Below, piece after piece: positions 27,245-59,232 of a stretch of DNA of 64,000 bases; position 1 is the first letter of the stretch, and each line of letters starts with the position of its first letter. This DNA is from Shewanella maritima (GTDB lineage: Bacteria; Pseudomonadota; Gammaproteobacteria; Enterobacterales; Shewanellaceae), in contig NZ_CP036200.1 of NCBI RefSeq assembly GCF_004295345.1, positions 558,001 through 622,000 of the forward strand. The letters are read 5' to 3'. A program made the position numbers and the translations under genes. The notes beneath the pieces are model-generated. The model was not told the DNA's origin. It worked only from the letters and a program-made list of their open reading frames with translations, and ran no database searches.

Positions 27245-27596
27245 ATTCTGTCCATGAATAAATCGGTCGAAGATGCTCACAATGTGCAGATCAAAAAAGT
27301 GAGCAGGTTTAAAAAGCAAAAGAGTTGAGCAAATGTAAAGCGCTAATCATTAGCCCCTATGTAAGCCTACGGACAAATAAAACCATAAGGTTTGTAAGGC
27401 TTAACTCTACATTGTAAAGACACAAAACCTAAGCTAACAGAGCAGATTAAACATGGAAAGTAGGAAAATGTTTCAGGGTTTATCGGCGGGTTTGGGTGCA
27501 AGCAAAAACACCTGACTACTAGGTTATCAAGTCAATTCTCAACAATCGCAATGATCAGATGAATCCCTAACACGAGTGACCATGAGCAGGTTAATT

Positions 27597-27629
27597 TGCG
27601 CATTAATCCCATTATGTGCGCATGCGCGC
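27597..27629 (+). repeat. 33-bp direct repeat with GCGCATGCGC palindrome, copy A
   Basis: TGCGCATTAATCCCATTATG followed by TGCGCATGCGCGC. It matches copy B (27727-27759) at 30 of 33 positions. It contains the dyad TGCGCA...TGCGCA and lies upstream of the integron cassettes. The function is unknown; it may be a relic of the recombination or promoter region. Confidence 0.7.
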
Positions 27630-27680
27630 TTTTACGGTATGGCGTAAATATGGATAATCTGGTATTTATAATCAATACAG

Positions 27681-27712
27681 TTGGTTAGCTGCATTCTCAC
27701 GATTTATATAAT
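27681..27712 (+). promoter_or_regulatory. Candidate promoter reading into the cassettes
   Basis: TTGGTT (27681-27686), 17 bp, TTATAT (27704-27709); a perfect TATAAT also occurs at 27707-27712 with 20-bp spacing. It lies outside the first cassette and points into it, as an integron Pc promoter would. Confidence 0.35.
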
Positions 27713-27726
27713 TGGCAAAACGAGCA

Positions 27727-27759
27727 TGCGCGTTAATCCCAATATGTGCGCATGCGCAC
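27727..27759 (+). repeat. 33-bp direct repeat with GTGCGCATGCGCAC palindrome, copy B
   Basis: TGCGCGTTAATCCCAATATG followed by TGCGCATGCGCAC, 130 bp from copy A and ending 9 bp before the 5' core of cassette 1. It holds a perfect 14-bp palindrome, GTGCGCATGCGCAC. Confidence 0.7.
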
Positions 27760-27790
27760 TATATAAATGTTAACTGCATAGGAGAGATTT

Positions 27791-28642
27791 GTGCACTTTT
27801 TCTACATGGATGAAAGTGGCTGCACTGGAGCCAATCTTGAAGATGCCAATCAACCTATTTTTGTTCTTGGGGGTATTTCTGTTGCTGATCAAAAGTGGAA
27901 TAACACCCAGACAGCCTATTCAAAGATCATAAGTAGTTATTTCGATGGCAACATTCCAGAAGACTTCGAACTTCATTCTCTTGAGTTGCTTAGCCCCAAG
28001 GGTGAGGGGCCATTTGCTGGTCACGACATAGAAAAGCGACTTCAACTTGTAAGGGATGTCTTGGGGCTGCTAGATGAGCTTGGTCATGATGCATTCTTTT
28101 GCGCAATTGAAAAAGAGGTTTTGAATGGCCGAGAGTGTGACTTCGATTTCCAGTTTGACTATAAAACCCCTTATCTATGCTCCTTTGATTATCTTGTCAC
28201 ATACATAAATTGGCATGTGAAGAAAAACTTAGGGCATACCGCTAGGGGGCTAATTGTTCTGGATGAAAAAGATAATCTTCATGCGGATATAGAGCGGATA
28301 GTTCATAGCCGAAGGTTTGAGGGTGCTGCAGCCCACAGGGTCAAATGGATTGTTGAGTTCAGCTACCCCGTAGACTCAAGAAAAAATCCGATGATTCAAA
28401 TATCAGATTTAGTTGCACTATGTTTACGCAGGTTTCTTGAAATAGATAAAGGCTACAGAGACGAGTGGCCTGATGTTGTAAAAAAATTCTACGCCGAATG
28501 CTACAAAACCATTGATTCTCGCGTTAGGCGGAAAAAGATAGTTGAGCGCACCGGAAAGAAGTCAAAGAACTTAAATGACTTTATGGCAGAAATTCAGTGC
28601 AAGCCACGCACACGATGGAAGAATCACTATGGCGTGCAGTAA
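27791..28642 (+). CDS. DUF3800 domain protein (cassette 1)
   Basis: A 283-residue protein with the DUF3800 pattern: the N-terminal FFYMDESGCTGANLED with acidic DE pair, PIFVLGGISVADQKW, ARGLIVLDEKDNLHADIERI, and near the C-terminus QISDLVALCLRRFLE with a conserved Asp. The distribution of acidic residues suggests an RNase H-like nuclease fold, which is an inference. The function is unknown; DUF3800 genes often sit on mobile DNA. Start is GTG at 27791 with GGAGAG 5 bp upstream. ATA, AGG and AGA codons look more frequent than in the neighbours, fitting foreign origin. The stop is followed after 3 bp by attC1. Confidence 0.85.
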   Translation: MHFFYMDESGCTGANLEDANQPIFVLGGISVADQKWNNTQTAYSKIISSYFDGNIPEDFELHSLELLSPKGEGPFAGHDIEKRLQLVRDVLGLLDELGHDAFFCAIEKEVLNGRECDFDFQFDYKTPYLCSFDYLVTYINWHVKKNLGHTARGLIVLDEKDNLHADIERIVHSRRFEGAAAHRVKWIVEFSYPVDSRKNPMIQISDLVALCLRRFLEIDKGYRDEWPDVVKKFYAECYKTIDSRVRRKKIVERTGKKSKNLNDFMAEIQCKPRTRWKNHYGVQ

Positions 28643-28645
28643 AGC

Positions 28646-28723
28646 AGTTAACAAGGCCAGCCAGAGGGACCAAAAAACCGCCGCTTCGCTCTGTTTTTTC
28701 GGCCCCTGCTGGCGGCGTTATAT
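28646..28723 (+). repeat. attC1 recombination site
   Basis: A 78-bp imperfect hairpin: inverse core AGTTAAC, L'' GCCAGC (28656-28661) pairing with L' GCTGGC (28708-28713), a long stem including CCAAAAAAC/GTTTTTTCGG with unpaired extra bases, terminal loop CGCCGCTTCGCTC, and 3' core GCGTTATAT. The form (AACAAGG...GGCGTTA) is that of integron attC sites. Confidence 0.85.
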
Positions 28724-28742
28724 TTTTTAGATACATCACGCG

Positions 28743-29495
28743 ATGGCAGATAGAGTATTACCAACACCAGAGAAGTTCGCATCTTGTCCATACGATGAGA
28801 AGATTCTTCCTTTCTATGAGGGGCAGTTTGATTGCGTTTATGTTCTATTACATCCATTTTTTAAACCTACCGCTATTGGTATTGAACGGTTCTGTCCAGC
28901 GGAGTGGCCAGAGAAGCACGAAATCATTAACGGCTGTGAATCAATTAGCTGGCAAGAAATCCTGAAAATGTCAGGGCTAGATAGCTTGTCTGATATCGAT
29001 ATAGGTTTGAGAACTAGCATTGGTGGGTTAAAAGAAGAGTTATCAAACGAACAGTTTTCAGAAAAACTAGCTGAACTAGAAGAGCAAAATATTATTCATC
29101 CACAGGAAGGTGATATAGCTCCATTACTTGAAAACCGTCTTTTAAAAACAATCAAAAATCTTGGTCATGATTGGCTTTGGGTAGGTGATGAATTCGGCAT
29201 AGAAAGGAAGCTTCACTGGATTGATGACCTTGTGGAAAAAGATGAGATCCCATCCCATGGTTGTGTTTTTACTCACGATCATAGTTTGCTCGTAACAACA
29301 CACTGGGATAGTCATTGCTCGTTTCTATGTTCCTCAAAAGAGAATATTGAAAAAATACTATCACTAGAACCATTTGAAGGGTTTTATTGTACTCCGCAGA
29401 CGGAAGTATACTGGGGGCATATGAAATATAACAAGCGCATCTTGTCGGACTGGTTTTCCGCTTCGCTCCAAACCAGCCGCAAATGCGAGCGTTAG
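28743..29495 (+). CDS. Unknown cassette protein, C-terminus encoded by attC (cassette 2)
   Basis: A 250-residue soluble protein. I do not recognise it with confidence; segments such as VYVLLHPFFKPTAIGIERF and DIGLRTSIGGLKEEL faintly recall DUF2711, which needs a profile search. There is no signal peptide or membrane segment. The last 23 residues (KYNKRILSDWFSASLQTSRK then CER) are translated from attC2, and the TAG stop is part of the core GTTAGCT, so the natural C-terminus may have been fused on cassette formation. The ATG at 28743 has no ribosome-binding site, as is common in cassettes. Confidence 0.75.
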   Translation: MADRVLPTPEKFASCPYDEKILPFYEGQFDCVYVLLHPFFKPTAIGIERFCPAEWPEKHEIINGCESISWQEILKMSGLDSLSDIDIGLRTSIGGLKEELSNEQFSEKLAELEEQNIIHPQEGDIAPLLENRLLKTIKNLGHDWLWVGDEFGIERKLHWIDDLVEKDEIPSHGCVFTHDHSLLVTTHWDSHCSFLCSSKENIEKILSLEPFEGFYCTPQTEVYWGHMKYNKRILSDWFSASLQTSRKCER

Positions 29496-29497
29496 CT
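29426..29497 (+). repeat. attC2 recombination site
   Basis: A 72-bp imperfect hairpin: inverse core ATATAAC, AAGCGCAT pairing with ATGCGAGC, stem GACTGGTTT/AAACCAGCC, loop TCCGCTTCGCTCC, 3' core GCGTTAGCT. The inverse core is the exact complement of the 5' core of its cassette (GTTATAT at 28717). Confidence 0.88.
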
Positions 29498-29512
29498 GTA
29501 TAAGGATATATC

Positions 29513-29932
29513 GTGTACTTTGATGCACTAGTCAAACAAATAGAGCGTGAGTTTCCCAATAAAAGATTCGTAGTTAAACCTCATGACTTTTCAATTTCAG
29601 TCCCTCCAAAAGCTAAAGGTTTTGGTGCTATAGAAATTCAAGATGATTGTGATGAATTCATTATTTTTATTGGTAACTTTACTCACGTCCATTTTAGCTG
29701 TAATGACACTTCATTGAGTAAGCAACAACAAGCTGACTCAGCAGCATCCGAAGTCATCGACTTTTTAACGGATCTTTTCGCAGATAAAATTGTATTTTGG
29801 GGTTCTGCTGAAAAAGGTGGTGGCTTTTACTACCCAGAGTTTAGCTCAGCGGAAAACGAAGAAAAAAATGGGTTTGGTCAGGCGCATTATCCAGCTAACA
29901 AGCGCAACAGTTTCAGCCTAAAAATACTTTAA
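29513..29932 (+). CDS. Unknown cassette protein (cassette 3)
   Basis: A 139-residue soluble acidic protein with no family I can name. It has a long amphipathic start (MYFDALVKQIEREFPNKRF), strands such as GAIEIQDDCDEFIIFIGNF, and a C-terminal FWGSAEKGGGFYYPEFSS. The GTG start at 29513 has AAGGA 6 bp upstream. The last 13 residues (ANKRNSFSLKIL and preceding) come from the truncated attC3. A size near 120-140 residues is usual for cassette genes, including small immunity or antitoxin-like proteins, but nothing specific supports that here. Confidence 0.7.
   Translation: MYFDALVKQIEREFPNKRFVVKPHDFSISVPPKAKGFGAIEIQDDCDEFIIFIGNFTHVHFSCNDTSLSKQQQADSAASEVIDFLTDLFADKIVFWGSAEKGGGFYYPEFSSAENEEKNGFGQAHYPANKRNSFSLKIL
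29893..29932 (+). repeat. Truncated attC3
   Basis: It begins AGCTAACAAGCGCAACAG, where the inverse core AGCTAAC complements the 5' core GTTAGCT of cassette 3. The expected right half (GTTGCG followed by a GCGTT core) is not found in the next 380 bp, so the site is cut off or rearranged and probably not functional. Confidence 0.7.
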
Positions 29933-30319
29933 GCTTTTTTCTTCAACTTAGAGTTGAGTTAATGCAATAAGTGAAGCAAGTATATTCGTCGGTTTACATG
30001 CTGGTATTCGTGGATTACTTATCTTTCGATAAGCAGCGCCTACCTTACTACCAATTTACAAACATTGGGCGTCGTGACACCTGTCTTCAGTCTATGTTCG
30101 TGGTTCAATGAGAATATTGACATGGCCACCCATAATTATTGAACATCACAAAATACTAAAGCACGATTATTGAGCTCACTCTTTTGTGAATATTGAGTCA
30201 AAATCACAAGGCCGAAAAGTACGTTGATGAGATCAGAAGATACGCCCTGCTAACACCAAAAAGCTCAAGCAGTTGCTTGAGCTTTTATCTTTGTAATTCG
30301 GTTAAGGCCACGAATTAAC
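29933..30319. other. Gene-free stretch after the cassettes
   Basis: About 387 bp with no credible reading frame. It contains a small dyad CAACTTAGAGTTG (29944-29956) and a strong bidirectional terminator at 30259-30286. The rest is A/T-rich and unlike the flanking genes; it may be what remains of the deleted right side of the cassette array. Confidence 0.5.
30259..30286. terminator. Bidirectional terminator
   Basis: AAAAGCTCAAGC pairs perfectly with GCTTGAGCTTTT around AGTT. It serves the minus-strand gene at 30320-30925 and could also end cassette transcription. Confidence 0.85.
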
Positions 30320-30925
30320 CTAATTAAACTCGGCCTCTAGGCTCTGTTGCTCTTGGACTTTCTGTACAAAGGCAAGCACATTGTCTCGCTCAAAGTGCTG
30401 ACGCAGGTTTACTGCTTGCTCTAGGTCAAAATGTGGCTCTTTTGGATGGTAGGAGATGTATTGGTTATTGATGCTTTGCATTTTAGGGATGACAAACACC
30501 AGTTGGTGATGCTTTGGTGATTGTGAGTAAAAGTGCAGGCTAAGATCGACTGAGCGTCCTACTCGCCATGGGCTATTACCTAAACGCCAAAAGGTATAAC
30601 CAGTTTTGACTTTGGTGATCTCTTTATCAAGGGTGACGGCTTTAGCAATGGCTTTCTTATTCCATGATTCATACTTATAAATCGCTGACATTAGCGAGTC
30701 TGCCGCATCGCGAGACAACCTCACACCAACGACATAAATACCCTCATAGAAATAGATAGTAAACTCATCTTTTTCGGCGTTGTAATCGATACTGGCATCA
30801 GCCGCTTTTAGGCGATTGATATCTTCATCAAAATACTGTGGCTGGATATTACTCACGTAACGTTCATCAGCACAGACGCCTGAGAACGACAGTAAGAGCA
30901 ATACTAAAAGCACTAAAAATCTCAC
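30320..30925 (-). CDS. Secreted protein of unknown function
   Basis: A protein of about 201 residues with a signal peptide (MRFLVLLVLLLLSFSGVCA, cleavage before DER). The mature part is a mixed alpha/beta domain (EFTIYFYEGIYVVGVRLSRD, GYTFWRLGNSPWRVGRS) ending in a charged helix. I do not recognise the family. Start choice: a TTG at 30943 is in frame, but it would place AAGGAGGGG inside the gene; the GTG at 30925 is correctly spaced behind that site and begins the signal peptide. Confidence 0.72.
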   Translation of the reverse strand: MRFLVLLVLLLLSFSGVCADERYVSNIQPQYFDEDINRLKAADASIDYNAEKDEFTIYFYEGIYVVGVRLSRDAADSLMSAIYKYESWNKKAIAKAVTLDKEITKVKTGYTFWRLGNSPWRVGRSVDLSLHFYSQSPKHHQLVFVIPKMQSINNQYISYHPKEPHFDLEQAVNLRQHFERDNVLAFVQKVQEQQSLEAEFN

Positions 30926-31102
30926 AATCCCCTCCTTGATCAAAAATTTTACATTTCTACGCTAAATAAAAATGAGTAATTACTCAATCAAAAAATCATC
31001 ACATTTGAAAAAAATGACACTTGCAGCCTCCTTGTACGCGAATTTTAGCCAAGCTAAATCAGCCGGTTGCTTGAACACCTGCAATCCCACACACCTAAAA
31101 AA

Positions 31103-58950: not shown

Positions 58951-59232
58951 AGGGCCTGTTGATCTTTCAAGATTATTTTTGCAGCTGCCTGTTGGAAATT
59001 TATACAAGACAACGACTTTGATGTGTGGTTGTTCCACATGATAAGTCGTTAACGCAGTAGAAATGACAACAAGCGCTGCCTGAAAGGTTCGTTTAAAAGC
59101 ACTTACGCTCTTAGCAAAGAGTTAAGTTTGTTGTGAGCGAATTTGTGTAGGTGACTAGACGTCATCGCTCACGCCTCGATTAAAGTGCTTTTAATTCGAA
59201 CGAATTCTAATCAGCAAAGATCAACAGGCCCT
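58951..59232 (+). mobile_element. MITE-like element, copy 2 (GGGCCTGTTGATC terminal repeats)
   Basis: 282 bp bounded by AGGGCCTGTTGATCTTT and its inverse, with TA on both flanks. It agrees closely with the inverse of 820-1084 but has about 15 extra bases near 59115. It is directly joined to the lipase-like gene: the TAG stop of that gene is formed at the element edge (TA of the target plus G of the element). No reading frame. Confidence 0.82.

Follow-up and report, generated by a model that had tools for sequence, protein, structure and literature searches.

How does an array of integron cassettes come to stand in a bacterial chromosome with no integron integrase gene (intI) beside it? The question arises at a Shewanella maritima locus within a 64,000-nt stretch of DNA (the window; coordinates are positions in it unless prefixed C1). 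Three cassettes lie here on the + strand, at 27770-28717, 28718-29491 and 29492-29905, and the 5' core of each is matched by an R'' core of its own: GTTAACT at 27769 by AGTTAAC at 28646 for cassette 1, GTTATAT at 28717 by ATATAAC at 29426 for cassette 2, and GTTAGCT at 29491 by AGCTAAC at 29893 for cassette 3. Two complete attC sites, attC1 (78 bp, 28646-28723, + strand) and attC2 (72 bp, 29426-29497, + strand), were recognised by a strict attC scan and by folding, and have the loop CCGCTTCGCTC in common. The third, attC3, is truncated to its R'' core (29893-29899, + strand) and a few bases; the sequence ends within about 15 bp of that core, and cassette 3 has lost its right end at a breakpoint within about 29891-29910. 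The first-pass annotation of this DNA had described a cassette array without integrase (CALIN) with three core pairs, two complete attC sites with a common loop, an implicitly incomplete third, and one + strand ORF per cassette; we found all of this in the sequence, coordinates included. As a CALIN, the array has two complete attC sites, no intI nearby, and own-core matches in three of three cassettes.

Run over the whole 64 kb on both strands, the strict attC scan, whose thresholds were fixed after attC1 and attC2 had already been seen, returns exactly these two sites. Dinucleotide shuffles of the window (n=40) yield a mean of 1.6 strict hits and a maximum of 5, so the scan by itself proves little; hits as good as the weaker window attC numbered two in all over the 40 shuffles. 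Folding of the bottom strands, a check that the first-pass annotation had suggested, gives z = -3.3 and -3.2 with DNA energies (attC1 taken without its first base), and the top and bottom strands of attC2 fold equally well (-16.3 and -16.1), i.e. with no strand bias. The case for cassettes rests on a 5' core equal to its own R'' in each of the three cassettes, together with the same cores around relatives of the array genes: in unrelated hosts, the 5' cores and R'' are conserved at some loci and absent at others.

ORF1 (27791-28642, + strand, 283 aa) encodes a DUF3800 protein (PF12686, 1e-15) equal in length to its relatives, with a predicted fold nearest, weakly, to RNase HII (best E 1.1e-3); one relative (L094, 84%) has kept the 5' core, with R'' not evident by eye. 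ORF2 (28743-29495, + strand, 250 aa) encodes a DUF2711 protein (PF10924, 1.6e-16), for which a fold search gave nothing at E<=0.001. A scan of named genomes found 17 DUF2711 loci, and among the 14 whose borders we examined, GTTATAT lies just 5' of the gene in six (L053, L057, L058, L059, L060, L062) and ATATAAC at its stop in four (L053, L054, L057, L062), with both cores in three; at L056, L058, L059 and L069 the gene end falls outside the stretch examined. Neither core is found at the DUF2711 genes of Kiloniella (L064) and S. hanedai (L068). Since the cores are present at some of these loci and missing at others, DUF2711 is a recurrent cassette gene that is found outside arrays too. ORF3 (29513-29932, + strand, 139 aa) belongs to no known family and has four relatives besides itself in the protein collection, one of which (L091) has kept both the GTTAGCT core and AGCTAAC by eye, while another (L092, 34% identical) is situated in an array. 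ORF1 and ORF3 are rare and sporadic in the order, the former occurring at E<=1e-40 in 1 of 294 genomes and the latter in 2 of 393 other genomes. The C-terminal frames of ORF2 and ORF3 depart from those of their relatives: in each, the relatives' frame is left in homopolymer runs near the end, and reading then continues through the attC region (attC2 in the case of ORF2), which may reflect decay or sequencing error. Rfam has no match to the locus at E<=1. PADLOC matches are weak or partial, which leaves unchanged the first-pass statement that no defence role is shown.

The array is flanked by xdhC and a metallo-beta-lactamase gene, and the intergenic gap that it occupies measures about 3.9 kb here. 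Of 117 genomes, 88 have a match to xdhC, and from these we took 20 stretches of relatives for comparison. The metallo-beta-lactamase gene follows xdhC in 19 of the 20, at a distance of 126-433 bp in 14 and 2.3-2.7 kb in five, and was not found beside xdhC in the remaining one. None of the 20 stretches contains the attI motif described below (at <=6 mismatches), and attC-scan hits in them are weak and at most two. Conservation of the same genes and spacers among relatives had been named at the outset as evidence against a cassette array; what the relatives have instead is the two flanking genes adjacent or no more than 2.7 kb apart in those 19 stretches. The five longer gaps (L079, L080, L083, L087, L089) are filled with 2.3-2.7 kb of other DNA, with no attC-scan hit and no attI motif. 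Also inside the island is a gene (30320-30943, - strand) that is absent from all 116 other same-genus genomes searched.

To the right, the truncated attC3 runs into a remnant of the attC-side end of an attC-targeting element of IS110/IS1111 type (29900-30110, start approximate). This DNA matches an element present six times in genome G019, where one copy (L016) encodes a 384-aa IS110-type transposase and stands directly behind an attC; an attC adjoins matching IS DNA in L038, L040, L017, L019 and L020 as well. We take the element to be of the IS1111-attC group, with which it has in common an IS110-type transposase and a place beside attC in G019 and other genomes, and from which it differs in that the window holds a terminal remnant only. 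Because the element is found beside attC elsewhere, attC3 was probably lost through IS insertion and deletion. IS1111 elements can invade attC sites, as set out in part of PMC9229058. A second dispersed repeat of about 143 bp follows at 30114-30256, with further copies at C1:4363600, C1:2750114 and, in part, C1:4370082.

The first-pass annotation had concluded that the integrase is now distant or lost, and had proposed a search of the whole genome for intI. The conclusion is right as far as it goes: TIGR02249 identifies a single integron-type gene, which is split (C1:4145550-4146050 and C1:4146202-4146753), scores below the cut-off and is damaged, with stops within its second piece; six further matches are much weaker. 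The split gene lies about 1.16 Mb from the window array, across the start of the record if the chromosome is circular, beside a resident array whose attC sites range in length from 59 to about 140 bp, most of them being close to 100. Short repeats at 998-1087 and 58951-59037 of the window are akin to a stretch within this gene (73-90% identical over 29-30 aa, tblastn). It could be argued that a chromosomal rearrangement split the window array from the resident one, given that both are terminated by remnants of one kind of IS. We give this explanation very little credence. The genes flanking the window array stand next to each other or close together in 19 of 20 relatives, which indicates that the array was inserted; the attI region of the resident array is, by eye, unlike the left flank of the window array; and the IS remnant is all that the two arrays have in common by BLAST. 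With the sole intI broken and its attI different, we conclude that the enzyme that loaded the window site is not in the genome now.

The first-pass interpretation thus holds with respect to an array without integrase and a distant or lost enzyme. It missed both ends of the array: the IS remnant on the right and, on the left, an attI head. The left flank of cassette 1 is a putative orphan attI element without intI (27595-27771, + strand), with 73-74% identity along its length to DNA at two further places in the genome and containing two near-repeats of about 34 bp (27597-27630 and 27727-27760). Within it, the 24-bp attI core motif (27748-27771, + strand) has one mismatch to GCGCATGCGCACTATACAAATGTT and a crossover point at G27769/T27770, and the array begins at this G/TT, with GTTAACT and its matching R''. 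There are four copies of the motif in this genome, the window copy included. A search with the left-flank DNA found matches in 53 of 129 same-genus genomes, and in the copies examined similarity ends at the G/TT, where the cassettes start, or within about 17 bases of it.

The link to intI comes from the best 30 intI loci, of which 15 have the motif at <=6 mismatches; the other 15 lack it (other attI types, or beyond the end of the locus). In the 14 loci used, the motif and the intI start codon are 190-327 bp apart, and 265-327 bp in 13 of them. This position identifies the motif as the attI of that integron type, and intI, present beside the motif in these 14 loci, is not beside the window copy. 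A frequent variant of the core, CTAATAAAATGTTA, contains AATAAAATGTTRRRY, the attI2 minimum consensus as given in a section of PMC12901181. Two named Shewanella plasmids have "integron integrase" regions that are about 84% identical to the intI-attI stretch of one genome (G035); for the S. decolorationis pNi1-3 record the identity is 84.3% over 83% of the query. In several copies, an ATG in the attI core (-21 to 0) opens a frame, MRTIQML..., that runs into the first cassette, and this ATG is possibly a translation signal. A distant integrase could also have inserted cassettes off target, at an attG-like site; the array does start at a G/TT that is distant from intI, the outcome expected of attG insertion. 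However, the site is not arbitrary: its 24-bp motif is found again across the genus and next to intact intI, in many cases together with further adjoining DNA. We dropped attG insertion for the left junction, which is a repeat common to intI-linked sites, and consider off-target loading most improbable.

Orphan copies of this attI are common. At <=3 mismatches, 279 copies of GCGCATGCGCACTATACAAATGTT are spread over 86 of 129 same-genus genomes, with at least two in 61 genomes and up to 16 in a single one; the reversed pattern had 0 matches in the genomes listed. The 34 genomes without intI over the cut-off hold 120 of the 279 copies. Among 31 copies from 30 loci taken regardless of intI, five have intI within 1.5 kb, six of the others having less than 1.1 kb of upstream DNA. 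A larger set of 77 distinct copies, including 14 fetched via intI, was examined with tblastn (14 integrase queries, E<=1e-3): intI lies upstream of 17 and not of 60, where the upstream DNA available measured at least about 1.5 kb for 54 of the 60 and 168-1027 bp for the other six. ORF lists of 15 copies revealed no common gene that might have replaced intI.

Many orphans are followed by real cassettes. An R'' matching the copy's own core lies downstream of 40 of 56 orphans and is lacking in 16, against a mean of 5.5 and a maximum of 14 in shuffles (n=2000); four of the 60 were left out of this test because of short downstream DNA or a core other than GTT. Strict attC sites within 1.5 kb are found downstream of 21 of 60 orphans and upstream of 1 of 60; the corresponding figures for intI-linked copies are 8 of 17 and 0 of 17. 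At L255, one attC-scan hit lies at -572, to the left of the attI unit, a placing that would fit if the attI unit were a cassette in its own right. Sampling of the order found the motif in 34 of 394 genomes and 4 of 114 genera, and intI was found in 3 of 13 loci fetched from other genera. The same attI type occurs on conjugative plasmids of Enterobacter (L265, pN069_1), Moellerella (L266, pNX2019-MW2) and Shewanella (L270, pSX1_LC6), in stretches where an integron integrase is neither annotated nor detected; in the first two, a drug-resistance cassette (FosG and dfrA1, respectively) directly follows attI. Spread by phage found no counterpart in a search for exact matches, with the motif in 0 viral contigs.

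Each such array might be a decayed ordinary integron that arrived as intI, attI and cassettes and had its intI deleted in place. Some observations fit. One copy, on a Pseudoalteromonas plasmid (L269), still has a 53-aa stub of intI near -295 to -450 of the core, indicating that loss of intI from an integron gave rise to at least some of the orphans. A LexA-like CTG-N10-CAG box is present at the intI promoter position in 20 of 58 orphans, the figures being 15 of 17 for linked copies and 6 of 71 for control windows. Deletion in place may hold for single sites, but as the account of each array we find it doubtful: 60 of the 77 copies have no trace of intI upstream by tblastn, and a genome can hold as many as 16 copies. 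Moreover, five orphans of one genome (L207-L211 in G108) share 544-940 bp of upstream DNA, which runs beyond the position, about -294, where intI begins in the linked copy of that genome, so these copies descend from an orphan; two other orphans of that genome have about 234 and about 104 bp of upstream DNA in common with the rest. Two copies in G035 have almost nothing in common beyond the core. We read these observations as orphans being integrons that lost intI, whose attI would then have multiplied. In L229, L237 and L241 the body is, by eye, of one sequence type and the core of the genome's majority type, as if the attI cores within a genome were kept in step.

Cassettes have turned over at orphan sites. 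Two genomes from related species, G093 and G123, have eight attI copies each and no intI over the cut-off, and seven of the resulting site pairs are orthologous, with common flanks on both sides, 84-97% identical. The DNA between attI and the right flank differs in six of the seven pairs and is the same in one. In three of the six differing pairs (L246/L253, L248/L259, L252/L260) an attC-type GTT core, altered in L246, forms the right border; in the other three that border is not clean. An inner stretch is held in common by L247/L254 and L251/L255 (91 and 198 bp), and the eighth pair has no common right flank within the 8 kb examined. Cassettes are also shared between orphan and intI-linked sites. 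In S. maritima, the first cassette at the orphan site C1:4608819 matches the second one in the resident array, 461 kb away, without a difference over 397 bp, and the identity extends from the G of one core to the GTTA of the next, i.e. it is cut at the recombination cores. An orphan site and an intI-linked array in G137 have 127 identical bp, cut by the end of the contig. Among the sites of G108, G035 and G096 we saw no sharing.

We propose that the window array is an outpost of a distributed integron, seated on an orphan attI of SonIntIA type and loaded in trans, and regard this as the likely explanation. An orphan attI copy would have been in place between the two flanking genes; an integron integrase acting in trans, directly on such orphan copies, would have inserted circular cassettes at the G/TT, one after another; later, an attC-targeting IS would have hit the last attC, and a deletion would have fused the remainder. 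Cassettes 1 and 2 retain both recombination sites, and with attC3 lost, cassette 3 should no longer be excisable. The attI copy, the cassettes beginning at its G/TT, the species differences in cassette content at other orphan copies and the identical cassette at a second orphan site and in the resident array are seen directly. That an integrase acts on the orphan copies themselves, which integrase it was and how the attI copies spread are inferred; for the spread, integrons would have lost intI, and their attI would then have been copied. For the genus, the best reading is that a large part of the integrase-less arrays are outposts seated on dispersed attI copies and loaded in trans. We lean slightly towards a broader proposal, that one trans-acting integrase, whether resident, plasmid-borne or transient, serves many orphan attI in Shewanella and a few neighbouring genera, with most integrase-less arrays being working outposts. 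Several observations count against this account: the one intI of the S. maritima genome is broken and its attI different by eye; G093 and G123 likewise lack intI over the cut-off; 15 of the 30 intI loci lack the motif; 16 of 56 orphans have no R'' matching their own core, and 39 of 60 have no strict attC within 1.5 kb downstream; the right border is not clean in three of the six differing site pairs, two of which have an inner stretch in common; and L269 keeps its intI stub.

Three origins have been put forward for integrase-less arrays: off-target insertion, loss of intI and rearrangement (PMC8618304, citing Cury et al., in the section on this subject). Dispersed attI copies would be a fourth, with a searchable sequence signature, and would revise the customary view of a single attI paired with a single integrase. 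Stray docking sites of this kind in related bacteria suggest that a single integrase can supply numerous genomic sites with cassettes; if so, each orphan attI is a first-cassette position with its own chromosomal context, on chromosome and plasmids. Such copies may have been overlooked because IntegronFinder, according to the relevant part of PMC9024848, detects attI in class 1 integrons only. They are not described in the open-access literature that our search covered, subscription journals lying outside it, including the available portions of PMC9892861, PMC3053210, PMC3607928 and PMC2426708.

The arrays described here can be set beside several known systems. Sites of the attG type are neither attC nor attI, as excerpts of PMC11023631, PMC12444791 and PMC12901181 report of Loot et al. 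(2024); loading at such sites also places cassettes outside an integron, whereas the window site belongs to an attI motif family and is thus not an attG. In the delta-attI cassettes of class 1 and 2 integrons, displaced pieces of attI are functional in assays, as a section of PMC12901181 relates. There, too, attI pieces are separated from intI, but delta-attI lies 3' of a cassette gene in mobile integrons, and the copies reported here head chromosomal arrays. The SonIntIA-type platform (intI and attI, as on S. decolorationis pNi1-3) has the same attI sequence in the same position before the first cassette, and differs in having the intI that is missing at most of the copies. Lastly, CALINs and SALINs (attC arrays or single attC sites without an integrase) are abundant in Shewanella (PMC9229058, in part) and, like the arrays considered here, are scattered in the chromosome away from intI; in the available text of that study attI appears only as part of an integron, whereas here a recognisable attI heads the array.
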